DNA from: Helicobacter macacae MIT 99-5501
GTDB taxonomy: Bacteria > Campylobacterota > Campylobacteria > Campylobacterales > Helicobacteraceae
Assembly (NCBI RefSeq): GCF_000507845.1
Contig: NZ_KI669454.1
Location: 1,092,604-1,156,603 of the forward strand
Direction: 5' to 3'
Length of the DNA: 64,000 bases
The translations under genes and the position numbers were made by a program. Positions 942 to 45,149 of this stretch are shown piece by piece. The notes below the pieces were generated by a model. That model searched no databases. It was not told the origin of the DNA and saw only the letters and a list, made by a program, of their open reading frames with translations. Numbering within the stretch: position 1 is the stretch's first letter; each line of letters opens with the position of its first letter.

Positions 942-1044
942 ATATTTTTGCTAGAAAATCTAATAAAGCAGAATTCAAAAACTATAAAATCTCTGCTAGC
1001 TTTGCTAAAAAGTGTCTTAAAAAAACAACTAAAAGGAAGTGTAA

Positions 1045-1521: not shown

Positions 1522-2515
1522 CAAAAAATTCATAATCGGCACTCGTGGTAGCGCACTCGCACTATGGCAAGCCGAGCATATCAAATCGCGACTAAAAGCC
1601 GAGCTAGGAGTAGAATCTACCTTAAAAATAGTAAAAACCAAAGGCGATAAAATCCTAGATGTTCCCCTTGCCAAAATCGGTGGCAAAGGGCTTTTTACCA
1701 AAGAGCTAGAAGAGCTGTTGCTAAGTGGGGAGATTGACTTAGCAGTGCATTCGCTAAAAGATGTGCCTGTGGAGCTACCAAGTGGGCTAACTCTAGCTAG
1801 CATAACCAAGCGCGAAGATGTGCGAGACTGCTTGCTAAGCTATAAGTATGAAAGCTTAGATTCTCTTCCACAAGGCGCAAAAGTAGGCACAACCTCGCTA
1901 AGACGCACGATGCAAATACTTGCCAAACGCCCTGATTTGGAAGCACTATCCCTTAGGGGCAATGTCCAAACAAGGCTAAAAAAGCTAGAATCTGGCGAAT
2001 TTCACGCCATAATGCTAGCAGCTGCTGGGCTAAAAAGACTAGGTATAACAAATGAGCAAATCCCGCATATTACGGCTTTTGAAGTAGATGAGATGATACC
2101 TGCTATGGGGCAAGCAGCACTTGGCATAGAGTGCAGAAATGATGAAAAGATAACCTCGCTGCTAGAAAAACTAAGCGACAAAGAAGCGATGATATGTGCT
2201 AGCGCGGAGAGGGAGTTTATCCGCGCTCTAGATGGCGGGTGTCAAGTCCCTATTGGCGTTCACTGCAAGATAGTGAGTGATTCTCACAAAGTAGATTTAC
2301 TCAAGATAAATGCAATAGTGGGGATACCAAGCGGAGAAAAAATACTAAGAGAATCTCTAGAAATATCTATCAAAGAGATTCCACAAAAATGCTCGCAAAA
2401 ATCTTTGCTAGAGCTACAAAAAACAGCAAATGATATGGCAAAAAATCTAGCAGACAAAATGATAGCACAAGGTGCGAAAGAGATTTTACAAGAAGCCCTT
2501 AGCTTTTGGGGGTGA
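1514..2515 (+). CDS. hemC: Hydroxymethylbilane synthase (porphobilinogen deaminase)
   Basis: Condenses four porphobilinogen molecules into hydroxymethylbilane, the linear tetrapyrrole on the way to haem. The frame is open further upstream, but the ATG at 1514 has AAAAGGA just before it and gives the canonical N-terminus ending in GTRGSALALWQA; the product is 333 aa. Key residues are present: the HSLKD motif (residues 79-83, catalytic Asp83), the Arg-rich TSLRR segment, and Cys243 in DGGCQVPIG, which carries the dipyrromethane cofactor. The start overlaps the fxsA stop by 8 bases. Confidence 0.97.
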   Translation: MTSKKFIIGTRGSALALWQAEHIKSRLKAELGVESTLKIVKTKGDKILDVPLAKIGGKGLFTKELEELLLSGEIDLAVHSLKDVPVELPSGLTLASITKREDVRDCLLSYKYESLDSLPQGAKVGTTSLRRTMQILAKRPDLEALSLRGNVQTRLKKLESGEFHAIMLAAAGLKRLGITNEQIPHITAFEVDEMIPAMGQAALGIECRNDEKITSLLEKLSDKEAMICASAEREFIRALDGGCQVPIGVHCKIVSDSHKVDLLKINAIVGIPSGEKILRESLEISIKEIPQKCSQKSLLELQKTANDMAKNLADKMIAQGAKEILQEALSFWG

Positions 2516-2702
2516 TATTGTTTTGTTGCCTTGAAGCAATGAAGTAGTTTAGGCACAAATTAGCAAACGAAGTTTTTTCATAAAACAAAGGTAGTGAATT
2601 TTTTGAAAAAGTCTTTTGAATTTTGTTTTAATAAACGAGGTAGCGCATAGCCCTTTTGCAGAAAATATCTCTATTTTTTGCATATTTGATAGAATCTTTT
2701 TG

Positions 2703-3110
2703 CTAAAAACCCGTATCAATTCCGCTAGAATCTAGGCTTTTACTCATTATTTCTTGAGATTTTTTTATCGCTTCTAGTCGCTGGGCTTGAGTGATTTCAT
2801 TATTTTGATTTTGCGCTTGATTTGGTGGGGTGATTGTGGGTTTGGGCTGTGGGCTTGGCTGCTTTGTAGATTTGCTTTGTGGGCGAACTCCCGCTGGCAT
2901 TTTGACAAAGACATCTTCATAGTTTTTGCCACCTTTTCTAAACCTCACATACACATCGCCATTTTGGGTGTTAAACAAATATGTATCCACGCCATCGCTA
3001 AACATTTGCCAATCAGCAAGTGCTGGCGATATACCTAGCAACACAACTGCAAAAACCCCACAAAAAATCTTGCAAAAAAACTTGTGATAAAACCGATAAA
3101 AGTGCTTCAT
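2703..3110 (-). CDS. Small secreted/periplasmic protein of unknown function
   Basis: I do not recognise this 135-residue protein. It has a clear signal peptide: a basic N-terminus, a hydrophobic core around residues 12-28, and a likely signal peptidase I site after SPALA. The mature part starts with a small compact domain (DWQMFSDGVDTYLFN..., VYVRFRKGGKNYEDVFVKMP). It then becomes Pro/Gln/Asn-rich and ends in a charged helix. AAAGGGGAT precedes the ATG. It stands alone between hemC and the divergent pgeF-like gene. No Cys follows the signal core, so it is not an obvious lipoprotein. Confidence 0.65.
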   Translation of the reverse strand: MKHFYRFYHKFFCKIFCGVFAVVLLGISPALADWQMFSDGVDTYLFNTQNGDVYVRFRKGGKNYEDVFVKMPAGVRPQSKSTKQPSPQPKPTITPPNQAQNQNNEITQAQRLEAIKKSQEIMSKSLDSSGIDTGF

Positions 3111-3259
3111 AAATCCCCTTTATTTGTGTTGTCCTAAACATTTTGGCTTCTTTAGCTTTGCCTAAAATCTTTGCGCCTAGCCAAAATAAAGCAAAATAAG
3201 CAAAATTCTAGCATAAAAAATATTGTAAAATTTGCCAAAATCTTAAAAAAAGGTAAAAA

Positions 3260-4225
3260 ATGCCACCCCAAAATATAGCAATCACAAAAACAACCCAAAA
3301 AACACCAAAGCAAAAAATATCACATAGTGATAAGTCCAGCAATAGCGATGAATCCGTATTTTTCTCAAGCAAGCAAAGCGCGGTTTTTAGGGATTGTGAG
3401 ATTGATTTTGTGCTGACTTCTAGGCTTTGTGGGGTAAGCACTCCTCCATATCATAGTCTAAATCTAGCCTATCATACACGCGATAATCCCACAAATGTAG
3501 CCCATAATCGCGCTAAGATTCTCTCTACTTATTTTCCGCAAAAAACGCTTATCTTTTGCAATCAAATCCACTCAAGTATGATTCTAGCGTGTGATAAAAC
3601 GGATTATGACAAAGCCACCGATTCAGCGCAAAACTTGCAAAATCAACACAATCTGCAAGAATGCAATTTAGGGCAGGGCGATGGGATTTTTTGCACACAT
3701 AAAAACCTAGTCGCGCTTATTTTGGTGGCTGATTGCAATCCTGTGTTGATTTTTGATTGCGTAAATGGTGCGTTTGTCGCACTTCACGCGGGTAGGGCAG
3801 GAGTATGTGCTCATATCCTTACAAACGGCATAAACACACTGCTTGCAAATGGCGCAAAGACGCAAAATCTGCGTGTATTTATCGGGGCGTCTATACGAAA
3901 ATGTTGCTATGAGGTGGGGGAGGATTTGGCAATCCAAATACAAAAAGATTTTGGCAAAAAATACATAGAAAAAAGAAGTGGGAAATATTTTTTGGATTTG
4001 ATTTTGATGCTGCTAGATGAGTGCGATAGGGCTGGGATTTTTCGTGAGAATATCGAGGTTTTGGAAGTGTGTAGCTGCTGTGAGGATAGGCTTTTTTCAT
4101 ATCGCAGAGCATATAAAGAAAGCAGAGGGCAAAAAGCGCAAATCCGTAGCCAAAAGACAAGTGAAAGTTGTGAGAAAACTCTCATACAAACGGGTAGATT
4201 TGGGCTTTTTGTAAGCCTAAGATAA
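3260..4225 (+). CDS. pgeF: Laccase-domain purine nucleoside phosphorylase-like protein (PgeF/YfiH family)
   Basis: Member of the YfiH/PgeF 'polyphenol oxidase' family. Relatives act as purine nucleoside phosphorylases/adenosine deaminases and, in E. coli, help keep L-Ser out of peptidoglycan. Zinc-site motifs are visible: NQIHSS (101-106), GDG (140-142), ADCNPV (157-162) and LHAGRAG (175-181). The last is usually HAGWRG; the Trp is absent here but the His is kept. The first 35 residues are Lys/Ser/Thr-rich and look dispensable. AAAGGT precedes the ATG. The C-terminus also carries extra basic residues. Which substrate it uses cannot be told from sequence. Confidence 0.85.
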   Translation: MPPQNIAITKTTQKTPKQKISHSDKSSNSDESVFFSSKQSAVFRDCEIDFVLTSRLCGVSTPPYHSLNLAYHTRDNPTNVAHNRAKILSTYFPQKTLIFCNQIHSSMILACDKTDYDKATDSAQNLQNQHNLQECNLGQGDGIFCTHKNLVALILVADCNPVLIFDCVNGAFVALHAGRAGVCAHILTNGINTLLANGAKTQNLRVFIGASIRKCCYEVGEDLAIQIQKDFGKKYIEKRSGKYFLDLILMLLDECDRAGIFRENIEVLEVCSCCEDRLFSYRRAYKESRGQKAQIRSQKTSESCEKTLIQTGRFGLFVSLR

Positions 4226-4304
4226 TTGCTTCCTTGCACGGGGTTTCACAAAAGCAAAACGCGCTATTTTGCCTAAAATCTGCATAAAAATTGCTTATTT
4301 TGTA

Positions 4305-4310
4305 TATAAT
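4305..4310 (+). promoter_or_regulatory. -10 box of the tRNA-Ser promoter
   Basis: A perfect TATAAT lies 82 bases upstream of the mature tRNA-Ser, preceded by T-rich sequence as usual for Helicobacter sigma-80 promoters. No clear -35 box is seen. Confidence 0.55.
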
Positions 4311-4392
4311 AGCGAGGTTTTATTAGTGCTAGATTTTTAGCTAGCACAAGTGAAGTGTTGCGCGTTTTTTTGCGGTTTGATTAGCGCATTTT

Positions 4393-4480
4393 AGAGAGGT
4401 GTCCGAGTGGTTGAAGGAGCACGCCTGGAACGCGTGTAAAGTGCAAGCTTTCGAGGGTTCGAATCCCTTCCTCTCTGCCA
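4393..4480 (+). tRNA. tRNA-Ser (anticodon GGA)
   Basis: 88 nt with encoded CCA. The acceptor strands AGAGAGG (4393-4399) and CCTCTCT pair fully, with discriminator G. The anticodon stem CACGC/GCGTG holds the loop CTGGAAC, giving anticodon GGA (reads UCU/UCC). A long variable arm and the TTCGAAT T-loop fit a class II serine tRNA. Confidence 0.97.
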
Positions 4481-4628
4481 TATTTAAGCAACTTGCAAAA
4501 TACATTAGACATACTTTGAGAAATAAAAGTCTAAAAACTTTTCTTAAAAAATCTTACAAGATTCCCAAAAAGTGTGCCCAAAAAGTGTGATAGTAGGGAA
4601 TTTGCTTCTAGCATTAAGGAGTTTATCT

Positions 4629-4820
4629 ATGTGTATAAATGGAGAAAATTTCACGCAAAAAAGCCTTAGCCTTATGGAATATTTAGAGCTAAAGGGACTA
4701 AACCCCGCGCTTATCGCCCTAGAGCTAAATGGCAAAATTGTCCCAAAAGATGAGTTTGAAAAAGTGATTTTTAAGCAGGGCGATAAGGTAGAAATCCTTA
4801 GCTTTGTAGGTGGTGGATAA
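4629..4820 (+). CDS. thiS: Sulfur carrier protein ThiS
   Basis: A 63-residue beta-grasp protein that carries sulfur as a C-terminal thiocarboxylate for making the thiazole ring of thiamine. It ends in FVGGG, so it has the Gly-Gly tail that ThiF adenylates. The frame is open upstream of position 4629, but AAGGAG (4616-4621) sits 7 bases before this ATG, and the upstream extension does not resemble ThiS. It is the first gene of the thiS-thiF-thiG-thiH run. No TPP riboswitch is seen between the tRNA and this gene. Confidence 0.93.
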   Translation: MCINGENFTQKSLSLMEYLELKGLNPALIALELNGKIVPKDEFEKVIFKQGDKVEILSFVGGG

Positions 4821-4864
4821 TCCCCAAATGCAGAGCAAATCTAACACAACACTAAAGCAACACA

Positions 4865-5674
4865 ATGAAAAATATACTATTTAATGGCAAAAAGCACCAA
4901 ACCAAAATCACAGATTCCCTAAGTTTTTTTACTAGCCAAAACTGCGATGAAAACGATGTGTGGATAGTAAATGGCTTTGCAAGCAAAGAAGCAAAAACGC
5001 TAGAAAATGGCGATGAGCTGTGGTGTATCCCAAAAGGGAAAATGCCTCCACAAGACGCATTAGAATCAATGATGAGCGCACGACACACACCAAAAGTGCA
5101 CAACGCCCTAAAGCAAGCAAAAGTAGCAATATGCGGGCTTGGAGGGCTTGGCTCACATATTGCAATAATGCTAGCTAGAAGCGGGGTTGGGCATTTGGTG
5201 TTGATTGATTTTGACATTATCGAGCCTAGCAATCTAAACCGACAAGCCTACAACATAAGCGACTTAGGCAAGCTAAAAACTCAAGCTCTACGCTCTCACA
5301 TAAAAGAGATAAACCCTTTTATCACTACGCAGATTTTCACTACCAAAATTGAGCCTAGCAATATCCCAACACTTTTTGAGGGCTGTGAAATCGTGTGTGA
5401 AGCGTTTGATAATCCTTTCGCCAAAGCTATGCTTGCCCAGAATTTTCACACACACTTTCCAGACTCCACGCTGATATGTGCTAGTGGGCTAGCAGGCTAT
5501 GGGGACTCAAACGCGATACAAACACGCAAAATCAACGATAGATTTTATATTTGTGGGGATTTGCTTAGTGCAGCAGGCTATGGCAGAGGACTTATGAGCC
5601 CGCGTGTAAATATTTGTGCTGCTCATCAGGCAAACCTTGTGCTAGAGATTTTGTGTGCCCAAAATGGATTATGA
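4865..5674 (+). CDS. thiF: ThiS adenylyltransferase ThiF with N-terminal ThiS-like domain
   Basis: Adenylates the C-terminus of ThiS with ATP so that it can accept sulfur. Residues 1-58 form a second beta-grasp, ThiS-like domain (IVNGF, LENGDELWCIPKGKMP) without a terminal Gly-Gly. Residues 73-269 are the E1-like adenylating domain with the nucleotide loop GLGGLGSH (91-98), Asp115/Asp117, and SNLNRQ (122-127). This layout corresponds to the shorter 'family 2' ThiF of Campylobacterota; the CXXC zinc pairs of E. coli ThiF are missing. It begins 44 bases after thiS with only a weak ribosome site. Confidence 0.92.
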   Translation: MKNILFNGKKHQTKITDSLSFFTSQNCDENDVWIVNGFASKEAKTLENGDELWCIPKGKMPPQDALESMMSARHTPKVHNALKQAKVAICGLGGLGSHIAIMLARSGVGHLVLIDFDIIEPSNLNRQAYNISDLGKLKTQALRSHIKEINPFITTQIFTTKIEPSNIPTLFEGCEIVCEAFDNPFAKAMLAQNFHTHFPDSTLICASGLAGYGDSNAIQTRKINDRFYICGDLLSAAGYGRGLMSPRVNICAAHQANLVLEILCAQNGL

Positions 5675-12190: not shown

Positions 12191-12967
12191 TCACTCTCCC
12201 AAAAAATATTTTCTCTCTTTATCCTCATCAAACTCATTTTCTAAAACCCACATATCTCTTTCTCTCCTTGCTTCGCACTCCTTTTTGTCTGTGCTGATGA
12301 AATCTAAGCAATCATAATACACTTTTTCTATTGCTTGCACTCGCTTATCGCGCAAAAAATATTTTTCTTTTTGAGCTATATAAAAATCCAAGCAAGAGGT
12401 TTTGTCATTATGTATGCGAGATTTTTTGTAGGTCAATATCCGCTTCGCTCTAGCTGGGTCTTGCGTGGCTACTATGGATTCTAGCGTGGCGTAAAAATCC
12501 TCGTTGTATTCGTAATTTTTTCCATTGATTTTAGGGCAGATACCTAGCTTTATTTCATATATTGGCTTAGAATCTTTGATAAAAAATATCGCCACGCCAT
12601 TATCTAACCCAATCATATCTTTGTTATTTTCTAAAAGCATTGTTTTTTGTGTTGGAATTTTTTTGGGTATTTTTGCGTTTTTTAGTGCTTCGTTGTATTG
12701 TCCATAGCGGATTTTGTGATAGTATAGATTTTTTTCTTTTTTATCCGTGCAAAAAGAATAAATATTGTTTAACATTTCAGCGTTTTTTTGCGAGTTCATA
12801 AAGTAGCACACTTCCATATCTAGCTTTTTATCCTCCACATCTTGCAAGAGCGCGTAAAATGGCGACTTTGAAAGATAGATAAAGTGATAAGATAAAATCA
12901 CAGCTATTAAAGCAATGGTGAAGCAAACAAGCACACAAAAAGTTAATCGTTTTTGTTTATTTTGCAT
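12191..12967 (-). CDS. Membrane-anchored protein of unknown function, copy 1 of a tandem pair
   Basis: I do not recognise this 258-residue family. It has one N-terminal membrane segment (residues 9-32) and then a Lys/Glu/Tyr-rich domain with several cysteines, so it probably faces the periplasm. AAAGGAA precedes the ATG. The gene directly upstream (12993-13812) is a second copy; the two share a 141-bp identical stretch and a 78-bp identical stretch. This copy is intact. It is convergent with purL across a 225-bp gap in which I see no gene. Confidence 0.6.
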   Translation of the reverse strand: MQNKQKRLTFCVLVCFTIALIAVILSYHFIYLSKSPFYALLQDVEDKKLDMEVCYFMNSQKNAEMLNNIYSFCTDKKEKNLYYHKIRYGQYNEALKNAKIPKKIPTQKTMLLENNKDMIGLDNGVAIFFIKDSKPIYEIKLGICPKINGKNYEYNEDFYATLESIVATQDPARAKRILTYKKSRIHNDKTSCLDFYIAQKEKYFLRDKRVQAIEKVYYDCLDFISTDKKECEARRERDMWVLENEFDEDKERKYFLGE

Positions 12968-12992
12968 TATTTTTTCCTTTGATTTTTATGCA

Positions 12993-13812
12993 CTAATCAA
13001 GCGAGAAAATACATTCTCCTTGTATATTTTCGTAGTATTTATTGATAAAATCCATATCCTTTTTTCTTTTTATTTCACATTCGCTTTTGCTTTCCCACCA
13101 AAAATCCAAGCATTCGTAATATGCTTTTTCAATCATTTGTCTTTGGCTTTGAGGAGAGCAATATTTCACACTTTCGGATTCATAAGAATCCACACAAGAC
13201 ATACTCTCAATATGATATATATCATAATAAGATGAGTTTGATTTTTTGTAAGTCAGTATCCGCTTCGCTCTAGCTGGGTCTTGCGTGGCTACTATGGATT
13301 CTAGCGTGGCGTAAAAATCCTCGTTGTATTCGTAATTTTTTCCATTGATTTTAGGGCAGATACCTAGCTTTATTTCATATATTGGCTTAGAATCTTTAGT
13401 AAAAAATATCGCCACACCGCTATAAAATCCCTCTAAAGTTTCTATATTACTTTCTAGTGGCTTTGCTTTTTTTTGTGGGGAGTTTTTGCGTGCTGTTTTT
13501 TATGGCATTTTGGAGGGTGGATTTGTAAGTGTCATAGTGGATTTTGTGGTGGTGTTGCTTTAGGTTATATTTTGCTTTGTTTGATTGTTTGTCATCATTG
13601 CAAAAGGTGTAAATATCAGGGATTTTTCTAAAATTGTGCAAAGCATACTCAAAGTAGCACACTTCCATATCTAGCTTTTTATCCTCCACATCTTGCAAGA
13701 GCGCGTAAAATGGCGACTTTGAAAGATAAATAAAGTAATAGTAATAAACTAAAACTAGCAAACAGACAAAGACACAAAATATAGCAATGTAAATTTTTTT
13801 GATTTTTTTCAC
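12993..13812 (-). pseudogene. Copy 2 of the tandem unknown membrane protein, frameshifted at an A8 run
   Basis: Homologous along its length to the neighbouring copy: N-terminal membrane segment, FIYLSKSPFYALLQDVE block, then the KDSKPIYEIKLGICPKING block. The N-terminal half (from a GTG at 13812 with AGGTGG before it) stops at 13447. The C-terminal half continues in another frame to 12993. The shift lies at a run of eight A on the coding strand (T run 13467-13474). Reading with seven A would join the halves into about 272 residues with a sensible sequence across the joint. It may be a decayed gene, a slippage-switched gene, or a sequencing error in the homopolymer. Confidence 0.65.
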
Positions 13813-14081: not shown

Positions 14082-14279
14082 AATTTGTCCTTTTGATTTA
14101 GATTTTGACAGCAATAATATTTCTAAAAAGTAAATATTTTAGAAATGCAAATCATTTTGTAAGTTTAGTAAAAAATAGCTAGATTTTGGGAATATTAGAG
14201 AAGTAACGCAGATTTTAAAGCTAAAAAATCTATAAAAAAATATCAAAGTTTTTAGGAAATATTTTTAAAATCCAAAAAT

Positions 14280-14675
14280 CCATTGGCTTGGTATAAGCCG
14301 AGTTCTGTCGAGGGTGGCTATTTATCTAGGGTGCATTTCACAACACACCTCAAGCAAAGGGCAAAATCTAAGACATTTACCACGCCCTTTTTGCTACGGA
14401 TTGGGTTTGCACGGCACTGCTAGTTGCCTAGCAGTCGGTAGGCTCTTACCCCACCTTTTCACCCTTACTCATTTGTGCTTATCCTTCTTTTAGCGGTGCT
14501 TTTTAATGCTTGCAAAAACATTTTTGCAAAAAATAAGCACAAATGAGCGGTTATTTTCTGTTGCACTTTCCCTTAGGTCGCCCTAGCCATTCGTTAAATG
14601 GAATCCTTGTCTTATGTAGCTCGGACTTTCCTCTCTTAAATCTTAAAGAGCAGCCACCACCAAACCAATGGAAAA
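14280..14675 (-). ncRNA. rnpB: RNase P RNA
   Basis: Catalytic RNA of RNase P, which trims tRNA 5' ends. On the minus strand it has the universal AGAGGAAAGTCCGAGCTAC near its 5' end, the GGGCGACCTAAGGG core, and GACAGAACTCGGCTTATA near its 3' end. The terminal P1 helix is formed by CCATTGG at the 5' end and CCAATGG at the 3' end. A T-rich stretch follows the 3' end. The 5' end is placed from P1 and the promoter and may be off by a few bases. Confidence 0.93.
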
Positions 14676-14794: not shown

Positions 14795-14809
14795 TTTTTT
14801 TTTTTTTTT
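14795..14809 (+). repeat. T15 tract in the promoter region of the five-gene island
   Basis: Fifteen T in a row directly upstream of TATTAT (14811-14816), a likely -10 box, about 40 bases before the first ATG of the island. Runs of this length slip readily in Helicobacter. T-tract length in promoters is known to tune transcription (for example H. pylori sabA), so expression of the whole island may vary with tract length. Confidence 0.7.
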
Positions 14810-14849
14810 GTATTATACGAACCGAATCAATATATGTAGAGGTATTTTT

Positions 14850-17033
14850 ATGGCGAACTTAAAAATATTAAAAGTCATACACGGTTTTCCGCCAGATTTT
14901 ATGGCAGGGAGCGAAGTTTATTCGGCTACGCTTGTAAAAGAGCTATCTTTAAGAGGGCATAATGTTTTTGTTTTTACTCGCATAGAAAATGAATTTTTAA
15001 AGCCTTACGCCCTCTATGATGAGGTAATCAAATATAAAAAATGCAATCCAATACATATTAGACGCATCAATAAACCAAAAGATTATCTATATAGAGATAA
15101 ATTTCTTGATACAAATATAGAACAAGCATTTTTAGAATACATAAATGAAGTAAAACCAGATATTGTGCATTTTGGGCATCTTAGCCATTTATCCATAAAT
15201 CTTATTTCTATTGCAAAATCTTTGGGTAAGAAAGTGGTTTTCACGCTACACGATTTTTGGCTGTTTTGCGTAAAAGGGCAACTTATCAATCAAGACAATG
15301 AAATATGCCTAAAACCAAGTGTGCAAAATTGTCAAAAATGCTCTCCATACAAGCCAGAGATAAAAGAAGTAGAGCAAATATTCAAAGCAATGGATAAAGT
15401 GCGAGAGCAAATAGATATTTTTATCTCGCCCTCTCATACCGTGCGTGATTTTTTCATTCAGCAGGGCATACCAGAATCTAAAATCATCTATCAAAAATAT
15501 GGATTTGATAAGCAAGCCATAAAATATAAAAAAAGAATCTTTAGAAAAAATTCAAAAATTAGATTTGGATTTATGGGGCGGATTATCCCTACCAAAGGTA
15601 TTAGCGTGCTATTAAATGCTTTTAGGGATTTGCCAAATGATGATTTATATATTTATGGAAGTGTCGCTAAGTCGCAAATGAGGTTTTTAGAGCTACAAAA
15701 AAATGTAAAATTTATGGGCAGTTATGATAATTCTGAAGTTGATAAGATTTTGGATTTTATTGATATTTTGATTGTCCCATCGGTTTGGTTAGAAAACTCT
15801 CCGCTTGTAATCCAAGAGGCGTTTCTATCGGGCGTTATAGTTATAACCTCAAATATCGGTGGTATGAAAGAGCTTGTAGGTAATAATGATGGATTTTTGT
15901 TTGAGGTTGGAGATTCTAATGATTTAGTTAAAGTCATCAAAAAAATCAAGCAAGATTGCAGAATACTTAATAAAATCAAAGACAATAGAGATAAAGTAGA
16001 TTCTAAACAAAAAGATGTGAATAAAATAGTTAGCATATATCATAGCCTTATCAAAGGAGAAAATATATCAAATTTGCCAACCTCTCTAAAAAGAATAACT
16101 ATTGACACAAATCCAGATACTTGCAATTATCAATGTAAAATGTGCGATACTCATAGTATTTATAACGCGCACTTTAGAAAATGCCGTCCTGATATGCCAC
16201 TAGATATATTAAACAAAACGCTAAATCAATCCAAATCTATGGGCGTAAGCGAAATTATCCCCACAACAATGGGAGAGCCAACCCTATATAAATACTTTGA
16301 TAGGATAGTGGATTTTTGTTTGCATAACGATATAAAACTTAATCTAACCACCAATGGCAGCCAGCTTTTTAACAAAAAATATAACCAAACATATATACAA
16401 AATAGACTTTTGCCCGCATTAAGCGATATAAAAATTTCTTTTAATAGTTTGGATTCTGCGGTAAATGAAGAAATTATGCGCAATACAAATACAAAAAAGA
16501 TTTTAGATAAAATCCAAAAGCTATGCTATTTGAGAGACACATTTTATCCCAAAGTAAGCATAACGCTACAAATGACATTTATGAAAAGCAATATGGAATC
16601 TATAAAACCGCTTATCAAATATGCCATAAAACATAAAATAAATCGTATAAAAGGGCATCAATTATGGATAACTCACAAAGAATTAGAAAATGAAGCTATC
16701 TATAAAGATAAAAAATATATAGATTTGTGGAATAAACTCATAATGTCATTGGAGAGTTATAGGAAAAAAATAAAATTAGAAAATTTTTATTTATTAGAAT
16801 CTAGCGGAATCACAAAAGGGGAGTGTCCATTTTTGGGCAAAGAGCTTTGGATAAATTACAAAGGAGATATTGCGGTGTGTTGCGCCCCAGATAAAGAGAG
16901 AAAAAAATTAGGAGATTTTGGCAATATAAATCAAGTAAATTTATCCCAAGTATTAAATTCGGCGCAATATATAGAGCTTTTGCAAAACTATACCCATAAG
17001 GAGGTTTGTCAAAAATGTCTAATGAGAAAATAG
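14850..17033 (+). CDS. Fusion of a GT4 glycosyltransferase and a radical SAM/SPASM-like enzyme
   Basis: First gene of the A/T-rich island, 727 residues from the ATG at 14850 (AGAGG upstream). Residues 1 to about 400 are a GT-B family 4 glycosyltransferase: HGFPPDFMAGSEVYSATLV at the N-terminus, FGFMGRIIPTKGISVLLNAF in the donor domain, and SGVIVITSNIGGMKELV in the nucleotide-sugar region. Residues about 410-727 are a radical SAM domain with Cys425, Cys429, Cys432 (CNYQCKMC). A C-terminal cysteine cluster (GECPFLG, AVCCAPD, CQKC) resembles SPASM auxiliary iron-sulfur sites. A glycosyltransferase and a radical enzyme in one chain suggests sugar transfer and radical modification of the same acceptor. 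The substrate is unknown. The next gene overlaps by 19 bases. Confidence 0.85.
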   Translation: MANLKILKVIHGFPPDFMAGSEVYSATLVKELSLRGHNVFVFTRIENEFLKPYALYDEVIKYKKCNPIHIRRINKPKDYLYRDKFLDTNIEQAFLEYINEVKPDIVHFGHLSHLSINLISIAKSLGKKVVFTLHDFWLFCVKGQLINQDNEICLKPSVQNCQKCSPYKPEIKEVEQIFKAMDKVREQIDIFISPSHTVRDFFIQQGIPESKIIYQKYGFDKQAIKYKKRIFRKNSKIRFGFMGRIIPTKGISVLLNAFRDLPNDDLYIYGSVAKSQMRFLELQKNVKFMGSYDNSEVDKILDFIDILIVPSVWLENSPLVIQEAFLSGVIVITSNIGGMKELVGNNDGFLFEVGDSNDLVKVIKKIKQDCRILNKIKDNRDKVDSKQKDVNKIVSIYHSLIKGENISNLPTSLKRITIDTNPDTCNYQCKMCDTHSIYNAHFRKCRPDMPLDILNKTLNQSKSMGVSEIIPTTMGEPTLYKYFDRIVDFCLHNDIKLNLTTNGSQLFNKKYNQTYIQNRLLPALSDIKISFNSLDSAVNEEIMRNTNTKKILDKIQKLCYLRDTFYPKVSITLQMTFMKSNMESIKPLIKYAIKHKINRIKGHQLWITHKELENEAIYKDKKYIDLWNKLIMSLESYRKKIKLENFYLLESSGITKGECPFLGKELWINYKGDIAVCCAPDKERKKLGDFGNINQVNLSQVLNSAQYIELLQNYTHKEVCQKCLMRK

Positions 17034-18646
17034 AGATTTCACTTGATGAAACGCACCATACAATAGGTAATAAACCGCTTTATACAAAGAGATATGCTAA
17101 AGTCCTAAGTTTTCATAACGGAATAGCTCCCGTATATGAATTGGCTAATAAAAAAGATAAACTACTAAAAGCATTTTTTATAGATAAAAATAATACAAAG
17201 CTATTTGGAAGAGAATTTAAACAGGCTTTTGGATTTTATGAGGGATTGGCTTGTGTGAGTGATGAAAGCGGGTTTTATCATATTTTAGAAAATGGTAAAG
17301 ATGCCTATAAAAGCAGATTTCTTTGGTGTGGAAACTTTGTTGAAAGATCTTGTGTAGCGAAAGATAGCAAAGGTAAATATTTCCATATTGATAAATCTGG
17401 CAAACCGCTATATAAAGAAAAATTTTGTTATGTAGGCGATTATAAGTATGGCATCGCCGTTGCGTTGTTAGAAAATGGCAAATGCGTTCATATTTTGAAA
17501 AATGGCAAGAGACTTTATAATAAAGAATATGAAATTTTAGAACCATTTCATAAAGGCGTAGCTGTCGCAAAAGATGCAAAAGGATACTTTCATATTGATA
17601 AGCAAGGAAACGAACTTTATAAGCAAAGATATGCAAGGTTAGAGCCTTTTTACAATTCAAAAGCGTTTGGGTTGGATTTTGACGGAAATAAAATCGTTAT
17701 TAAAGAATCTCAAAAATATCAACATAAGATTTTGGCTAATAATGAGGATTTTATCAAGAATTACATATCAAATGAAGCGTTTTCTTTTTTCAAAATGCGT
17801 ATTCTTCATAGCATTTTAGAACTTGGCGTATTGGATAGCTTAAAAAATAAATCAAAAATAAAATTAGAAAGCTATCCTAAAAAACTTATCTTGCAATGGC
17901 TTATAGCCAATAACTATATCACAAACAAATTTGAACTTACGACAAAAGGGAATATTGCTTTAAGCCTCAAACCGCTTATTTGCTATTGGCAGGGATTGCC
18001 ATTTATCATAAGCGAAAATTTAGAAAAAAGTCTTAAATATAATAAAGAGTTCTTTAGCGAACAATTTGGTATGCCTTATTTTGATTATATATCGCAAGAA
18101 AAAAATAGCGATGAAGCAAAAAAATTTAGTTTTATTTCTCAATTTTATACAAAAGATTATCATATTTCTAATCTTGCATTTGATAGAGAAATAGTATGTG
18201 ATATTGGGTGTGGTAGCGGGGTTTTGCTTGATAGTATTTATAAAAATTTCCCTAATATTAAGCCTGTTTATGCGGACAAAAAAGATTTTAGAATTATCAA
18301 AAATAAAACATTTAAGAAAATTGATTTTTTCAAACCTTTTAATATTAAAGCAGATGTATTTATTATTAGCAGGATTTTGCACGACTGGGACGATGAAAAT
18401 GCGATAAAAATTTTAAAAAACATTTCCAAAAATATGAGTAAAAATAGCGTATTGCTTGTTTTTGAAAGTTTTGTAGATATAAAGACTTTAAGCAATTTGG
18501 ATATTTGCTTTCATTTACTAAATTTTTTGGGAGGTAAAGAGCGTAGCTTAAAAGAATTTAAAAATCTTTTTAAAAAAAGCGGTTTAAGGATTGAAAATAT
18601 CATAGAGGGGAAACTTATAAATATCATAAAAGTGAGGAAAAAGTAA
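17015..18646 (+). CDS. Fusion of WG-type repeats and an O-methyltransferase
   Basis: 543 residues. Residues about 15-235 contain roughly five repeats of about 45 residues with the pattern 'F-H-I-[DL]-x-x-G-x-x-L-Y ... Y ... P-F-x-x-G-x-A', a WG-like repeat expected to form a beta structure for binding. Residues about 250-543 are a SAM-dependent methyltransferase of the caffeate/hydroxyindole O-methyltransferase type. They have a winged-helix-like dimer part, the SAM loop DIGCGSG (from Asp396), and HDWDDE, where His456 matches the catalytic base of that family. AAGGAGG (16998-17004) sits ten bases before the ATG at 17015, inside the end of the previous gene, so translation is likely coupled. 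The target hydroxyl group is unknown. Confidence 0.8.
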   Translation: MSNEKIEISLDETHHTIGNKPLYTKRYAKVLSFHNGIAPVYELANKKDKLLKAFFIDKNNTKLFGREFKQAFGFYEGLACVSDESGFYHILENGKDAYKSRFLWCGNFVERSCVAKDSKGKYFHIDKSGKPLYKEKFCYVGDYKYGIAVALLENGKCVHILKNGKRLYNKEYEILEPFHKGVAVAKDAKGYFHIDKQGNELYKQRYARLEPFYNSKAFGLDFDGNKIVIKESQKYQHKILANNEDFIKNYISNEAFSFFKMRILHSILELGVLDSLKNKSKIKLESYPKKLILQWLIANNYITNKFELTTKGNIALSLKPLICYWQGLPFIISENLEKSLKYNKEFFSEQFGMPYFDYISQEKNSDEAKKFSFISQFYTKDYHISNLAFDREIVCDIGCGSGVLLDSIYKNFPNIKPVYADKKDFRIIKNKTFKKIDFFKPFNIKADVFIISRILHDWDDENAIKILKNISKNMSKNSVLLVFESFVDIKTLSNLDICFHLLNFLGGKERSLKEFKNLFKKSGLRIENIIEGKLINIIKVRKK

Positions 18647-18647
18647 A

Positions 18648-19385
18648 ATGCTAATATATGAAAGTATGATAAAAAATTTACAGCTCGTTCCAAACGGGAC
18701 AAATGCTAAATTGCTATTAAGACATTCTATCCGTCCTCAAGACAATGACGGAAATGCTGATTTTAGCTTGGGATTGACACGAGAGGGAAAAGAATTTGCC
18801 AAGCTGTTTGGAAAATATTTAGGCGGGCATTTAGATAAAAATTTTAAAGTAGATATACAAAAGGTAAAAACAAGTATATCGCCTCGCTGTAAAGAAACGG
18901 TAGAAATGATTTTGCAAGGTTACCGCAAGGAAATCCCTATACAAGAAGAGAAAATTTTGCATACTATGTGGATAGAAAATAAAGAAAAATGGGATAAAGT
19001 TTTTAGGGACTATGATAAAAAAATGAAGATTTTATTACAAAAAATGCTTGATGGGGAGTATTTTGATGGAGTATATCCTGTCAATTTAAGTGTGGCAAAA
19101 ATGCTGCAAGTAATGGACTTCTATGACAATACCGCAAAGAAACAAACAGATAAAAAGAGCTTGTATAGGCTTGATATATTTGCAACGCACGATTCACTCA
19201 TTATGCTTTTGCTTGCATATTTGCTCGGTAAAAATATCGCCGAATTTAATGAATGGATATATATGCTTGAGGGTTGTATTTTATGGCTTGAGGAATATAA
19301 GCTTTATGTTGTTTGGCGCGGTGATAGATATGAGATAAAATTAGAATCTTCTATTTTAGAATTACTAAATCAAAAGGATATTTGA
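18648..19385 (+). CDS. Histidine phosphatase superfamily protein
   Basis: 245 residues with the LLLRHSIRP motif, where Arg25 and His26 match the RHG phosphohistidine site of the phosphoglycerate-mutase-like superfamily; Gly is replaced by Ser. A second conserved His follows in FATHDS. Between them lies a helical insert typical of acid-phosphatase-like members. GAGGAAAAAG precedes the ATG, one base after the previous stop. It probably removes a phosphate from an intermediate of the island's pathway. No signal peptide is present, so it should act in the cytoplasm. Confidence 0.75.
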   Translation: MLIYESMIKNLQLVPNGTNAKLLLRHSIRPQDNDGNADFSLGLTREGKEFAKLFGKYLGGHLDKNFKVDIQKVKTSISPRCKETVEMILQGYRKEIPIQEEKILHTMWIENKEKWDKVFRDYDKKMKILLQKMLDGEYFDGVYPVNLSVAKMLQVMDFYDNTAKKQTDKKSLYRLDIFATHDSLIMLLLAYLLGKNIAEFNEWIYMLEGCILWLEEYKLYVVWRGDRYEIKLESSILELLNQKDI

Positions 19386-19387
19386 TT

Positions 19388-20404
19388 ATGGGTGTATATA
19401 ATCGCTATAAAACACTTAAAAATCCTATTTTTATGCAGAGATATATAAACCAGCATTGCACTATGCTAAAATGGGGGTGTGTATTTGGTTTTGATAGAGA
19501 TAAAAAATTATACTACAAAATTTCACACAATATGACTAGATTTATTTTTATTAAACTAAAATTATTGTTTGTTTATAAGCTATATATTATGGCAAGATTT
19601 TTATTTGGAAAAATTGATTTGCCATATTTGCAGATTGTCGTAACGACAAAATGCACTTTGCGATGCAAGGATTGCCACGATTTAATGCCACAAATACCAA
19701 ATGAATCTCACTATAACGGAGTATTAGAAAATATAATAAGAGATTTCAATATAATACTAAATAGCGTAGATAGTATAGCTTCTATAAGAATTCTTGGAGG
19801 CGAACCTCTTTTGTTTAAAGATTTACCAAAATTGCTTAATTTTATAAAAAATCAAAATAAAATTAAAAGTTTTGATATTATTTCTAATGCGACTATACCA
19901 TTTAATCATAACTTGATTTCAGAGCTTAAAAACTGCCATAAAGTAAGGATTTTTATAGATGACTATACAAAACATACTAATAAAACCACAAAACAAAAGC
20001 TAAATGCCATAACAGATGAGCTTGCTAAAAATAAAATAAAGTGTTTTGTTCTAAATAGTGGGGGAGATGATAGTTGGTTTGAAGCTGGCAAAGTTTTTAA
20101 AAGACATAGGAAAAGGGAGGATATAATAAAAAACTTTCTTATGTGCGGAATGTATTGCGTATCTTATATTGGCTCAAACAGCGATAAAAACGGCGGTATA
20201 TTTATATGCCCGAGAGCAAGCTCTATGAGTAAAATATTTGGTTTAGAAAAATTTAGTGGGGATTTTATCGCTTTAGATTCCAAGACACTAAAGCAAGATT
20301 TTGTAGATTTTTACTCCAAAGACTTTTTTGAATGTTGTGATTATTGCCACGATATGGATAAACCTAAAAAAATGATTCCAGCGGGAATCCAAATAAGCAA
20401 ATAA
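19388..20404 (+). CDS. Radical SAM protein
   Basis: 338 residues from the ATG at 19388, preceded by AAAGGA and overlapping nothing. The radical SAM cysteines are Cys89, Cys93 and Cys96 (CTLRCKDC), followed by the GGEP motif (ILGGEPLLF) that helps bind SAM. C-terminal cysteines (MCGMYC, ICPRAS, CCDYC) could hold auxiliary clusters. The N-terminal 70 residues include a hydrophobic stretch (FIFIKLKLLFVYKLYIMARFLF). It is the second radical enzyme of the island and differs from the radical domain fused to the glycosyltransferase. Substrate unknown. Confidence 0.8.
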   Translation: MGVYNRYKTLKNPIFMQRYINQHCTMLKWGCVFGFDRDKKLYYKISHNMTRFIFIKLKLLFVYKLYIMARFLFGKIDLPYLQIVVTTKCTLRCKDCHDLMPQIPNESHYNGVLENIIRDFNIILNSVDSIASIRILGGEPLLFKDLPKLLNFIKNQNKIKSFDIISNATIPFNHNLISELKNCHKVRIFIDDYTKHTNKTTKQKLNAITDELAKNKIKCFVLNSGGDDSWFEAGKVFKRHRKREDIIKNFLMCGMYCVSYIGSNSDKNGGIFICPRASSMSKIFGLEKFSGDFIALDSKTLKQDFVDFYSKDFFECCDYCHDMDKPKKMIPAGIQISK

Positions 20405-20426
20405 TTGTTTATATAGGATAAAATTT

Positions 20427-21641
20427 ATGAGGTTTTTTATATTAGGAAATATCAATGCAGGGAAAAGCACATTTGCTAAGAAAATCCAACTATATCTTAA
20501 AAGTAAAGGATTAGAATATCCTATTTTATCGATTGATGATTTTCGCAAAAAATATGGAAATGGCAGCAAAAAAAGCGAAAACATAGCCCAAAATAAATTT
20601 TATCTATCCATAAACAAAACTCAAAACGCCATTATCGAAATGGTTGGATTTGGAGATATAGCCACAAATATTATAGAAAGTTTGGATAAAAATAGCTGCA
20701 TTATCATATACATAGAATCTCCCCTAAATATTTGCCTAAAAAGACTAAAAACCAAAAAGAAAATGTTAGAGAGCATTCCATACCCAGAATCTATAAATAA
20801 TATAGAAAAAACGATTCACAATTTGAATGCTTATTTTACTCGTGGAAAATTGCAAGAAAAATGGAAAAAGGTATATCTAATATTTTACAAAATAAATACT
20901 ATGGATAATTTAAGTGATTTTATCAAAAGACTACCATTAGAGCATTATCATTATTTAAGCGAGGTTATCCACATACTAAAATCAAATAATTATAAAAAAC
21001 TTGTTTCTTTTGGAGGACTTGGCAGATGCGATATAAATATTTTTTCCGATTTGGATTTAATCCTCATAACAAAGAAAAAAATTTCACAAGTATACGAATT
21101 GTTAAAAAACTTTTTTGAAAAAATGAAATATTTTAAAATATACGCGTTAGATGAAAAAATCATTATAAATATTCATAGCCATATTGTCATTGAAATCGCT
21201 GTTGTCCATAATTTTTGCGAGTATATACAATTCTACCACGGTTCAAGCATAACAAATATTTCTAAAAGTATTTTATTAGGAAACGAAAAATTAGACAAAG
21301 AAATAAAGCATCTAATCATAAATTATAAGCCAAATGTGATTAACCGAGATATTTGTGAAAAAAAGATAAACTATTATGTAGAGTTGCTACAAAAAGCATA
21401 TTTGGCAAATGATGATTTTAGATTTTATTTTATGAATAATCTTATCGTAAATCAAGTCGTGAGAGTGCTGTGTCTAAAAGAAAATATAACCGAATTTTTA
21501 TATTGTCCAAAAAATATAAATACATTGGTTAAGAAATATAATATCAAAACAATTCTTTGGGATATGATTACCGATAAACAAAAACACATTGATAAATTAT
21601 TTAACTTTTTGAAAAATATTGGCTTAAGAGATTATAAATAA
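20427..21641 (+). CDS. Fusion of a P-loop kinase and a nucleotidyltransferase
   Basis: 404 residues. Residues 1 to about 165 look like a small P-loop kinase (AAA_33/adenylylsulfate-kinase-like), with GNINAGKST (7-15) as Walker A and SIDDF (35-39) as a likely catalytic Asp. Residues about 175-404 have a polymerase-beta-type nucleotidyltransferase signature: GGLGR (196-200) followed by SDLDL with Asp208 and Asp210. A chain that phosphorylates and then nucleotidylates a substrate would produce an activated, NDP-linked building block; this is inference. It ends 23 bases before the convergent asd gene and closes the island. Confidence 0.75.
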   Translation: MRFFILGNINAGKSTFAKKIQLYLKSKGLEYPILSIDDFRKKYGNGSKKSENIAQNKFYLSINKTQNAIIEMVGFGDIATNIIESLDKNSCIIIYIESPLNICLKRLKTKKKMLESIPYPESINNIEKTIHNLNAYFTRGKLQEKWKKVYLIFYKINTMDNLSDFIKRLPLEHYHYLSEVIHILKSNNYKKLVSFGGLGRCDINIFSDLDLILITKKKISQVYELLKNFFEKMKYFKIYALDEKIIINIHSHIVIEIAVVHNFCEYIQFYHGSSITNISKSILLGNEKLDKEIKHLIINYKPNVINRDICEKKINYYVELLQKAYLANDDFRFYFMNNLIVNQVVRVLCLKENITEFLYCPKNINTLVKKYNIKTILWDMITDKQKHIDKLFNFLKNIGLRDYK

Positions 21642-21664: not shown

Positions 21665-22705
21665 TTATTTGCCTCTAGCTATTTCACACCATTTTTGCGC
21701 GATTCGCACGGCGTTTGTAGCAGCTCCTACGCGGATTTGGTCAGCTACACACCAAAAATGCAAAATCTTTTTATCAAAATTATCCACACGCACTCGCCCC
21801 ACATAGGTTTCATTGGTATCTGTGGCGATTGTAGGCATAGGGTATAGACCATTTTGTGGTTCATCAATCAGCACGATATTCTGCGCAGATTTTAGCGCGT
21901 CTTTTGCATCTTTTGCGCTTACTTCACAAGAGAATCTAACAGTTATGCTCTCGCTATGGCTTCGCAGCACAGGCACGCGCACGCAAGTCGCGCTGATAGG
22001 GAAATCCGCGTGCATAATCTTGTGCGTTTCTTTTATCATTTTCATTTCTTCTTTTGTGTAGTCATTTTCCATAAACACATCAATATGTGGGATAACATTT
22101 AGCGCGATTCTGTGAGGAAACACGCTAGGCGAGGCAGAATCTAGCTCAAAAGCAAAGAATTTTTGCATTTGCAAGACTAACTCTTCCATTCCTTTTTTGC
22201 CAGCTCCACTTACTGCTTGGTAGGTGCTGACATCCACGCGTTCTATGCCAAACGCCTTATGCAAGGGGGCTAGGGCTTGCACCATTTGGATTGTAGAGCA
22301 GTTTGGATTGGCGATGATATTTTTTTTGGCAAAATCGGCTATGTCTTGTGGATTTACTTCAGGGACTACTAGAGGGACATCTTTATCTAGACGGAAAAAG
22401 CTCGTGTTGTCAATGACTAGCGCACCAGATTTTGCAGCACTTGGTGCATATCTCTCGCTTACGCTTCCGCCTGCGGAAAAAAACGCGATTTCTATCCCTT
22501 GCTCGCTAAATACTTCATCGGTAGTTTCTAGCACAGCGACTTCTTTGCCTTGCACCTCTATGCTTTTGCCGATACTATTTTTGCTGGCAAGTGGGACGAT
22601 TCTCTCTAGTGGGAAACCCACTTCTTCTAGCACGCGGACAATCTCTTCTCCCACCGCACCTGTCGCACCAACTATGCCTACGACATATTTTTTTGCATTA
22701 CTCAT
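21665..22705 (-). CDS. asd: Aspartate-semialdehyde dehydrogenase
   Basis: Reduces aspartyl phosphate to aspartate semialdehyde, the branch point to lysine/diaminopimelate, threonine and methionine. The Rossmann loop GATGAVGEE is at the N-terminus. The catalytic Cys is in NPNCSTIQM, and the substrate region includes QAVSGAGKKG and RVPVLRSHSE. The length (346 aa) is normal. GGAGG precedes the ATG. Its codon use differs clearly from the A/T-rich island whose last gene converges on it. Confidence 0.97.
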   Translation of the reverse strand: MSNAKKYVVGIVGATGAVGEEIVRVLEEVGFPLERIVPLASKNSIGKSIEVQGKEVAVLETTDEVFSEQGIEIAFFSAGGSVSERYAPSAAKSGALVIDNTSFFRLDKDVPLVVPEVNPQDIADFAKKNIIANPNCSTIQMVQALAPLHKAFGIERVDVSTYQAVSGAGKKGMEELVLQMQKFFAFELDSASPSVFPHRIALNVIPHIDVFMENDYTKEEMKMIKETHKIMHADFPISATCVRVPVLRSHSESITVRFSCEVSAKDAKDALKSAQNIVLIDEPQNGLYPMPTIATDTNETYVGRVRVDNFDKKILHFWCVADQIRVGAATNAVRIAQKWCEIARGK

Positions 22706-45130: not shown

Positions 45131-45149
45131 AAAAAAAAAAAAAAAAAAA
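45131..45149. repeat. A19 homopolymer tract between yggS and tRNA-Arg
   Basis: Nineteen A on the plus strand, T19 when read toward yggS. Its position 67-85 bases upstream of the yggS start puts it in or near that promoter. It also lies just downstream of the tRNA-Arg 3' end, where the minus-strand T run could serve as a terminator. Confidence 0.8.

Follow-up and report, generated by a model that had tools for sequence, protein, structure and literature searches.

The 64,000-nucleotide stretch of Helicobacter macacae MIT 99-5501 analysed here (the window) contains, at 14850-21641, an island of five nearly abutting, co-directional genes on the + strand, with rnpB on one side and asd on the other:

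14278..14669, - strand: rnpB, the left neighbour (Rfam RF00010, 264.9 bits)
14795..14809, + strand: T15 homopolymer (homopolymer scan), immediately upstream of TATTAT, a -10-like element
14850..17033, + strand: P1, a GT4 glycosyltransferase/radical SAM/SPASM fusion of 727 aa
17015..18646, + strand: P2, a fusion of a WG-repeat domain (about 220 aa) and a class-II small-molecule O-methyltransferase
18648..19385, + strand: P3, histidine phosphatase superfamily, with RHSIRP, RC, and HD motifs
19388..20404, + strand: P4, a second radical SAM enzyme in which additional cysteines are conserved
20427..21641, + strand: P5, a predicted P-loop kinase domain (GNINAGKS; PSTK-like) plus a nucleotidyltransferase domain (GGLGR...SDLDL) of the LinB/ANT type
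21665..22705, - strand: asd, the convergent right neighbour (Pfam Semialdhyde_dhC, 3.3e-58)

Start codons of P1-P5 were chosen by us, partly through alignments with homologues; the intergenic gaps are -19, +1, +2, and +22 nt, and asd ends 23 nt beyond the end of P5. Short open reading frames overlap or flank the five genes. An initial annotation had described five tightly spaced, co-directional genes of lowered G+C content between rnpB and asd, which the coordinates and base composition bear out: the G+C content of the island is 0.294 (29.4%), versus a mean of 0.407 (40.7%; sd 0.011, minimum 0.385) in 201 windows of 6.8 kb drawn outside 12-22 kb. Low G+C content is not general to this type of gene set, since the copy in another genome of the family (L152) has 0.35-0.38, close to the 0.37 of the sequence around it. 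The island had also been taken to start at 14795, but this is the first base of the T15 tract rather than a gene start. The tract and the TATTAT element lie about 40 nt before the ATG of P1, and their arrangement makes the tract a candidate length-variable promoter spacer. A consensus promoter scan listed no + strand site at this position, and a homopolymer scan found no run of at least 9 bases upstream of the P1 homologue in L152. Other identified neighbours in the window are genes for an Orn/DAP/Arg-type decarboxylase and a purL-like protein. In H. canis (L001) and the MAG L002, asd is followed by tmRNA in place of the island, and no island gene was found in the asd flank of either (10 kb and 1.1 kb, respectively).

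The gene identities proposed initially hold in Pfam and NCBIfam domain calls, with P5 identified mainly by its predicted fold. P1 matches Glycos_transf_1 (7.5e-26), Radical_SAM (6.2e-10), and SPASM (5.7e-10), and carries an EX7E motif at 315, CX3CX2C at 425, and invariant cysteines at 659, 677, 678, 720, and 723. An alignment of nine glycosyltransferase-radical SAM sequences contained 145 invariant columns, including EX7E and the radical SAM and SPASM cysteines, and P1 is also matched by the phage family phrog_21308 (1.7e-104). Fusions of glycosyltransferases with RRE domains were considered and dropped, as no link was seen. P2 matches WG_beta_rep (2e-07) and Methyltransf_2 (1.3e-20); it retains the SAM motif DIGCGSG, an HDW motif, and invariant histidines in its WG domain, which is better conserved than the methyltransferase part. 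Judged from entry titles, the nearest solved relatives of the methyltransferase are small-molecule enzymes. All 50 fold matches listed for P2 are methyltransferase-family entries, and a search with one WG protein as query gave no solved relative at E<=1.

P3 matches His_Phos_1 (1e-04; 22.5 bits, cut-off 21.7). P4 matches Fer4_12 (4.7e-06) and Radical_SAM (2.7e-06; 28.1 bits, below the cut-off of 29.5), and its additional conserved cysteines appear SPASM/twitch-like by eye. For P5, Pfam gave only the sub-threshold matches NTP_transf_2 (0.017) and APS_kinase (0.039), and the NCBIfam match to selen_PSTK (8.2e-07) scores 28.7 bits against a cut-off of 290.5; its annotation as a kinase plus nucleotidyltransferase thus comes mainly from the predicted fold. 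In that model, the nucleotidyltransferase domain is nearest to small-molecule (lincosamide, aminoglycoside) enzymes, with TM scores of 0.62-0.63 to LinB by target length, and the kinase domain resembles O-phosphoseryl-tRNA(Sec) kinase (PSTK; 0.45-0.48 by target length). Identity to P5 over these matches is about 11-19%, and no description among the chains listed is of a kinase/nucleotidyltransferase fusion. The aminoglycoside cluster of Rickettsia buchneri, for which kanamycin/gentamicin-type synthesis genes (kanC, btrB) are characteristic, was taken to be different and dropped; PMC8770908 links it to RAGE-A, and the main text of that paper does not contain the terms radical SAM, glycosyl, pREIS2, or Wolbachia.

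P1 and P2 are full-length homologues of two proteins of the Undecim Cluster of Wolbachia phage WO. In BLASTP, P1 aligned to UC3 (WD0613) with 37.1% identity over 785 columns (residues 4-727 to 1-774; E 5.4e-157), and P2 to UC4 (WD0614) with 29.5% identity over 562 columns (E 3.4e-52). This cluster (WD0611-WD0621) is described in PMC9203015 and PMC4701759 without an assigned product, and related clusters occur in Rickettsia, Cardinium, and Phycorickettsia. PMC9203015 reports it as highly expressed in Wolbachia, a statement qualified by PMC4701759, in which WD0614-WD0616 belong to the proteins of lowest abundance in the set; PMC12801941 reports its duplication in an obligate Wolbachia strain. 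In both systems, a GT4/radical SAM-SPASM fusion is followed by a WG/O-methyltransferase fusion, adjacent and on the same strand in the window. The initial view that no pathway with this set had been described must therefore be revised, as its first two genes are homologues of UC3-UC4. Nevertheless, we do not file the island as an Undecim Cluster, because counterparts of UC2 and UC5-UC8 were not found beside it: BLASTP of P1-P5 against UC2 and UC5-UC11 gave no match at 1e-3, and Pfam showed no UC2- or UC5-UC8-type domain in P1-P5 or in three open reading frames at 12191-13812. Missing beside the pair are the UC2 epimerase, PhyH, the ABC exporter, the threonine aldolases, and the transporters, whereas the window has a histidine phosphatase, a second radical SAM enzyme, and a kinase/nucleotidyltransferase. 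The Undecim Cluster belongs to phage WO, while the copy between rnpB and asd is apparently chromosomal. In the open-access literature searched, no paper was found that combines "Undecim cluster" with "Helicobacter", or in which "WG repeat" and "radical SAM" occur alongside "O-methyltransferase" or alongside "glycosyltransferase".

Among 121 genomes of the family, 4 carry the P1-type radical SAM domain (E<=1e-30), and exactly these 4 also carry full-length P5; P2 is found in 3 of them. A fifth genome matching P5 carries a 77-residue fragment with stops. The family genomes share the gene order glycosyltransferase, radical SAM, WG/O-methyltransferase, histidine phosphatase, (P4), P5, beside different neighbours. 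P4 is an optional member: it is present in L154 and L155 and missing between P3 and P5 in two genomes (G429 and G448; loci L152 and L153). P3 homologues are found in L152-L154. All five genes together were seen only in the window and in G426, both of the Helicobacter family, and in G426 they are spread over two contigs, with the glycosyltransferase and radical SAM enzyme as separate genes. A further genome, G436, has P1, P3, P4, and P5 and no P2 match, but as its P1 and P3 lie at contig ends, P2 may still be present there. The proposal that the five genes act as one pathway unit is thereby supported by the shared distribution of the P1-type radical SAM domain, P5, and mostly P2, and by the retention of the core elsewhere, but the complete set was seen in only two genomes.

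Genomes were also reached through relatives of asd (the best 80 of 154), and P2 was found in 0 of the 13 genomes first reached in this way. Only the methyltransferase part of P2 is matched in G079, the fourth strong match, with no island neighbour in the 11.7 kb around it; the other 21 of 25 P2 matches (E 6.5e-16 or weaker), mostly to WG-repeat proteins, were left out of the counts. P5 had no relative in an initial scan of genome contigs, nor in any of 398 genomes of the order, a sample without the four family carriers. P4 matched 368 of 398 genomes, mostly weakly, and reached E<=1e-40 in 15; at the seven strong P4-like loci read, from 6 of these 15 genomes, there were no other island genes. 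Some P4-like genes of the order stand apart from other island genes, for example after an RlmN gene. At a weaker P4-like locus (L146), the gene lies, by eye, among sugar-type genes, with faint similarity to radical SAM/epimerase queries. When three genomes outside the order were searched with a P2 alignment, one of them matched the methyltransferase part twice, and a second had a single WG-type match interrupted by stops. The WG domain was found in 0 of 398 genomes in the phylum of a Bradyrhizobium genome at 1e-15, in a search without a positive control, so that its rarity is only suggested.

Beyond the family, three further genomes of the order (L111-L113) carry epimerase, glycosyltransferase, radical SAM, WG(-O-methyltransferase), and histidine phosphatase genes in this order, the last at the equivalent place. 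The glycosyltransferase, radical SAM, and WG core is also found in phage WO, on three plasmids of Arsenophonus sp. from louse flies, and on the viral contigs L117 and L161. The plasmids (annotation for CP132908.1 and CP132904.1, tblastn matches only for CP132902.1) have glycosyltransferase, radical SAM, and WG-O-methyltransferase genes in the same order as the window, but the first two are separate open reading frames in CP132908.1, an epimerase gene comes first, and PhyH, SHMT-family, and threonine-aldolase-type (Beta_elim_lyase) genes follow. PhyH adjoins the WG gene in both phage WO and Arsenophonus, and the genes annotated or scanned there include no phosphatase; L117 showed none either. 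The set on L161 has an integrase gene on one side and, beyond one intervening gene, an endolysin gene on the other; it encodes a Y_phosphatase3 protein (1.1e-30) where others have the histidine phosphatase. As these two enzymes are unrelated, this replacement argues that dephosphorylation is a real step.

In the cassettes read, a WG gene accompanies the radical SAM gene and is usually adjacent to it (two genes away in L161). Methylation is not essential, since the SAM motif is degenerate in Arsenophonus and in the protein P0157, and L112, L113, and L117 have a WG gene without a methyltransferase. In P0159, the WG domain is fused to a histidine phosphatase instead. The neighbourhood search suggested in the initial annotation thus recovered a conserved unit within the family and a core beyond it, while P4 proved to be an optional member and P5 had no match in L111-L113, L115, L116, L117, L161, or the WO proteins, nor in other viral contigs or phage records. 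Activation of a donor by the kinase and nucleotidyltransferase, as first envisaged, is possible, but is weakened by the absence of P5 from the outside-family copies compared and by the small-molecule character of its nearest folds.

Gene content, order, co-occurrence, conserved motifs, and presence on chromosomes, plasmids, and viral contigs are direct observations. The reading we prefer, with a probability of roughly 0.5, sees in the island the Helicobacter version of a mobile biosynthetic cassette, which would produce a modified glycoside via a phosphorylated intermediate; the product would most likely be small and soluble. The cassette core would consist of the GT4 glycosyltransferase, the radical SAM/SPASM enzyme, and the WG-repeat protein, often joined by a phosphatase and an O-methyltransferase and, in many copies, by an NDP-sugar epimerase. 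The GT4 domain would transfer a sugar to a phosphorylated small acceptor, after which the phosphatase may remove the phosphate and make the transfer irreversible. Sucrose-phosphate synthase and its phosphatase, and MshA and its phosphatase in the mycothiol route, form soluble glycosides by this logic; there, too, a phosphatase stands beside a GT4 enzyme, but neither radical SAM nor WG proteins are known to accompany them. In the cassette, the radical SAM/SPASM domain fused to the GT4 domain might then oxidize or epimerize the sugar or aglycone, while the WG domain, with its row of invariant histidines, could hold the intermediate or contribute to the active site. A hydroxyl would be capped by the class-II methyltransferase. 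In Helicobacter, P4 would add a second, optional radical step, and P5 would phosphorylate and/or nucleotidylate a hydroxyl of the substrate or product.

The "small and soluble" part of this reading is weaker than the "glycoside" part, because surface-glycan loci commonly contain both GT4 enzymes and epimerases. A less likely alternative is that LOS, capsule, or another envelope glycan gains a radical-modified, O-methylated sugar, with phage-borne copies serving as receptor-masking cargo. Besides the GT4 enzyme and epimerase, the location of the L161 set fits this, the endolysin-integrase interval being a usual place of lysogenic conversion genes, and the T15 tract could allow phase variation, as occurs in other Helicobacter surface loci. 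Section 16 of PMC9203015 likewise predicts exopolysaccharide/LPS roles for UC1-UC3. However, Pfam and NCBIfam searches of the island proteins revealed no flippase, polymerase, initiating transferase, ligase, exporter, or lipid-carrier enzyme, and hydropathy indicated no clear membrane helix in them (19-residue stretches above KD 1.6: one in P3, at 1.63, and none in P1, P2, P4, or P5). In addition, the relatives of the methyltransferase and nucleotidyltransferase are small-molecule enzymes. With neither a clear membrane protein nor a flippase or polymerase encoded in the island, the surface molecule proposed initially is unproven.

RiPP-like modification of peptides or proteins, with the WG protein as one possible substrate, appears improbable. 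SPASM enzymes often modify peptides, and the WG protein, a repeat protein in which His, Tyr, and GN/GD motifs are invariant, accompanies the radical SAM gene; yet the gaps between P1-P5 leave no room for a precursor gene, so that the overlapping or flanking short open reading frames and the WG protein would be the candidates, and no RRE family is among the Pfam and NCBIfam matches listed (for P1, 25 of 36 NCBIfam rows). That the radical SAM enzymes are viperin-like and the island a defence island is very improbable: PADLOC pVip matches both P1 (2.5e-14) and P4 (4.4e-09), but at 51.4 bits or less, P1 scores 46.3 bits against the NCBIfam viperin model NF038283 (cut-off 180) and better against another radical SAM family, TIGR04317 (83.2 bits, itself below cut-off), and P2, P3, and P5 have no PADLOC match. 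To our knowledge, viperins have neither a SPASM domain nor a glycosyltransferase. Independent acquisition of five genes at an A/T-rich hotspot can hardly be credited, given the shared distribution and the gene order kept beside different neighbours; it is already contradicted for P1, P2, P3, and P5 and possible for P4, whose relatives stand without other island genes elsewhere in the order.

Returning to the glycoside cassette, new elements are the Helicobacter variant, with its histidine phosphatase, optional second radical SAM enzyme, and kinase plus LinB/ANT-like nucleotidyltransferase; the viral-contig cassettes and the tyrosine phosphatase that replaces the histidine phosphatase; and the better conservation of the WG domain, with its invariant histidines, relative to the methyltransferase. 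More tentatively, these sets may represent a class of natural-product cassettes not recognized before, which phages and plasmids carry between phyla. At its centre, a histidine-rich WG domain would act as scaffold or catalyst together with a (often fused) glycosyltransferase/radical SAM pair, yielding a radical-modified glycoside via a phosphorylated intermediate, while phosphatases, methyltransferases, dioxygenases, and kinase/nucleotidyltransferases would be exchangeable tailoring modules.

The comparison suggests a core of glycosyltransferase, radical SAM enzyme, and WG protein with interchangeable tailoring genes, and makes the WG domain worth study in its own right rather than as a passive repeat. 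Wolbachia is hard to manipulate, and the Helicobacter-type and other copies of the order offer a simpler place to find the Undecim product. Should that product be a diffusible glycoside that insect symbionts, Helicobacter-like bacteria, and phages share, host-associated microbes without close kinship would have this trait in common.

Five co-directional genes on the forward strand make up an A/T-rich island between two minus-strand neighbours:

14278-14669, minus strand, rnpB, left neighbour of the island
14850-21641, plus strand, five-gene island (products P1 to P5, in gene order)
21665-22705, minus strand, asd, right neighbour of the island

The likely starts are ATG codons at 14850, 17015, 18648, 19388, and 20427, which leave spacings of only -19, 1, 2, and 22 nt between successive genes, so that the five likely share one transcript. 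The island has a G+C content of 0.294, compared with a mean of 0.407 outside 12-22 kb (sd 0.011, minimum 0.385; 201 windows of 6.8 kb each). Low G+C is not universal among related cassettes, as the cassette genes of L152, a locus from a related genome, have values of 0.35-0.38 in a locus of 0.37. Left of rnpB, three minus-strand ORFs at 12191-13812 are A/T-rich too (about 0.33 G+C) and gave no matches in a Pfam/NCBIfam search at 0.1; they perhaps belong to the same foreign tract. Upstream of P1, a T15 tract (14795-14809) lies immediately 5' of a TATTAT element, and its length could set promoter spacing and thereby cause phase variation of P1. Elsewhere in the window, a G17 tract (32405-32421) lies within a 981-aa frame with a weak match to a TonB-receptor Plug domain (8.4e-05, just below the cut-off), which is perhaps a phase-variable outer-membrane receptor. 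Further long homopolymers are G10 (41636-41645), A19 (45131-45149), and A13 (58918-58930).

P1 is a GT4 glycosyltransferase (GT) with an EX7E motif, fused to a radical SAM (rSAM)/SPASM enzyme with CX3CX2C. P2 joins a WG-repeat (WG) domain to a class-II O-methyltransferase (motifs DIGCGSG and HDW), and among solved structures it is most closely related to O-methyltransferases of small molecules, including LaPhzM, MmcR, DtpM, and Plu4890-4895. P3, a histidine phosphatase, carries RHS and HD motifs. The second radical SAM enzyme, P4, has additional cysteines. P5 combines a PSTK-like P-loop kinase and a nucleotidyltransferase, the halves being assigned by sequence motifs. In its structure model (15 sequences, mean pLDDT 85), the first half matched the folds of O-phosphoseryl-tRNA(Sec) kinase and adenylate kinases, and the second those of LinB and ANT. 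A 19-residue hydropathy scan found a clear membrane helix in none of the five proteins.

The island genes form one unit. In a survey of 121 family genomes, reached via H. canis, full-length P5 homologues occurred in four (G426, G429, G436, and G448), and the P1-type rSAM domain (E<=1e-30) in the identical four; a fifth genome, G002, had only a 77-residue P5 match with stops. The chance of this overlap is 1 in 8.5 million assuming independent genomes, a figure weakened by kinship. P2 (E<=1e-30) was found in three of the four, G436 having no match. The gene order is P1 fusion-P2-P3-P5 in G448 and epimerase-GT-rSAM-P2-P3-P5 in G429, where GT and rSAM are separate genes. G426 carries NYN gene-epimerase-GT-rSAM-P2 on one contig (the GT frame as read lacks its start) and P3-P4-P5 on a second. 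In G436, the P1 fusion, truncated by a contig end, adjoins an argininosuccinate synthase gene, and another contig end holds P3 (in part)-P4-P5. Of these four carriers, then, two have P4 and two lack it between P3 and P5; elsewhere in the order, the P4 family occurs without other cassette genes at the loci examined. Such P4-like genes were seen in six other genomes (L139-L145). The one in L139 directly follows an RlmN gene, and its counterpart in L140 follows one that looks very similar by eye. Homologues from protein searches point the same way: P0003 (P4), P0065 (P2), and P0177 (P5) have a common longest contig of 13,580 bases, as do P0067 and P0179 (373,690 bases, which is also the length of the cassette-bearing contig of G448).

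The cassette is most likely mobile, since its neighbours vary between carriers and the island is missing beside asd in H. canis and the MAG locus L002. The neighbours in G448, G429, and G436 differ from those in the window, and the G448, G429, and G426 cassettes have NYN and other upstream genes in common. NYN-domain genes with two related unknown genes lie upstream of the cassette at L152:7132-7707 and L153:5644-6075, and an NYN gene also does so in L166. In H. canis and L002, asd is followed by tmRNA, unlike in the window, and no island genes were found in the asd flanks (10 kb and 1.1 kb, respectively). The island itself appears to sit on a Helicobacter-type chromosome, as the closest compared relative of its asd is from Helicobacter canis (75%) and a P5-identical protein is on record on a 1.68 Mb contig.

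The core extends beyond Helicobacter. P2 matched 25 of 398 genomes of the order (E<=1e-3), 21 weakly and four strongly (E 2e-135 to 3e-40). Three of the strong matches (L111-L113) share the order epimerase-GT-rSAM-WG-histidine phosphatase, the L113 epimerase frame being short, at a contig end; the fourth is a methyltransferase fragment. By tblastn, the set was also found on three Arsenophonus plasmids and in Wolbachia phage WO (MN180251.1), which encodes the Undecim Cluster proteins UC2 (epimerase), UC3 (GT/rSAM fusion), UC4 (WG-methyltransferase), UC5 (PhyH), and UC6 (ABC transporter), and two threonine aldolases. On Arsenophonus plasmids L115 and L116, panB, panC, and panE lie close to the cassette (L115:3553-6223), and a vitamin link is possible for these cassettes. 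Two IMG/VR contigs carry the set: L117, which has a terminase gene and in which a WG protein follows a GT-rSAM fusion; and L161, with GT-rSAM-Y_phosphatase3-O-methyltransferase-WG flanked by an endolysin gene and a phage integrase, one regulator-like gene lying between endolysin gene and cassette. Beside the L161 cassette, the gene at L161:7290-8198 has an RtcR-like PADLOC match (3.2e-17) and a Sigma54_activ_2 match. Nine GT-rSAM sequences were placed in an unrooted tree, which separated WO, Arsenophonus, and L117 from the other six with support 100; 145 columns never vary across the nine.

The initial annotation knew of no described pathway with this gene set. The GT/rSAM-WG core is already known, as UC3-UC4 homologues have been described: two papers (PMC4701759; PMC9203015) report them in Wolbachia and Rickettsia and point to potential syntenic homologues in Desulfovibrio, Haliangium, Capnocytophaga, and Saprospira. 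None of the open-access papers searched linked the core to Helicobacter or named the WG/rSAM/glycosyltransferase set. UC3 is 37% identical to P1 (785 columns) and UC4 30% to P2 (562 columns); most Undecim Cluster genes are missing from the window, however, and the island is therefore not classed as one. Rather, it is a new variant on a core common to the Undecim Cluster.

Within P2, the WG part is better conserved than the methyltransferase part. All 22 invariant columns of a 36-sequence alignment fall in the WG part, including His 37, 92, 127, 162, 182, and 196, although one WG-only row and one with a phosphatase replacing the methyltransferase by themselves preclude invariant columns downstream. 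When every row has both parts (32 rows), the WG part still holds 30 of 38. The methyltransferase is dispensable to the cassette, because no match was found beside WG in L112, L113, or L117 (in L111, WG bears one), it is a separate, unfused gene in L161, and its SAM motif is degenerate in Arsenophonus and the homologue P0157. Phosphatases recur in three forms, namely an adjoining histidine phosphatase, a WG-fused one (P0159), and an unrelated tyrosine phosphatase, which suggests that the pathway runs via a phosphorylated intermediate; none was seen in the WO, Arsenophonus, or L117 cassettes.

We infer the chemistry of the cassette as a whole. GT4 enzymes paired with phosphatases follow the logic of several soluble glycosides. 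A surface molecule had been proposed initially, and a surface glycan is still conceivable given the phage setting and the epimerases. A soluble product is favoured, as no gene of the island clearly encodes a membrane protein, flippase, or polymerase, and both the methyltransferase and the nucleotidyltransferase have folds of small-molecule type. P5 could serve in building-block activation, product tailoring, or protection of the producer.
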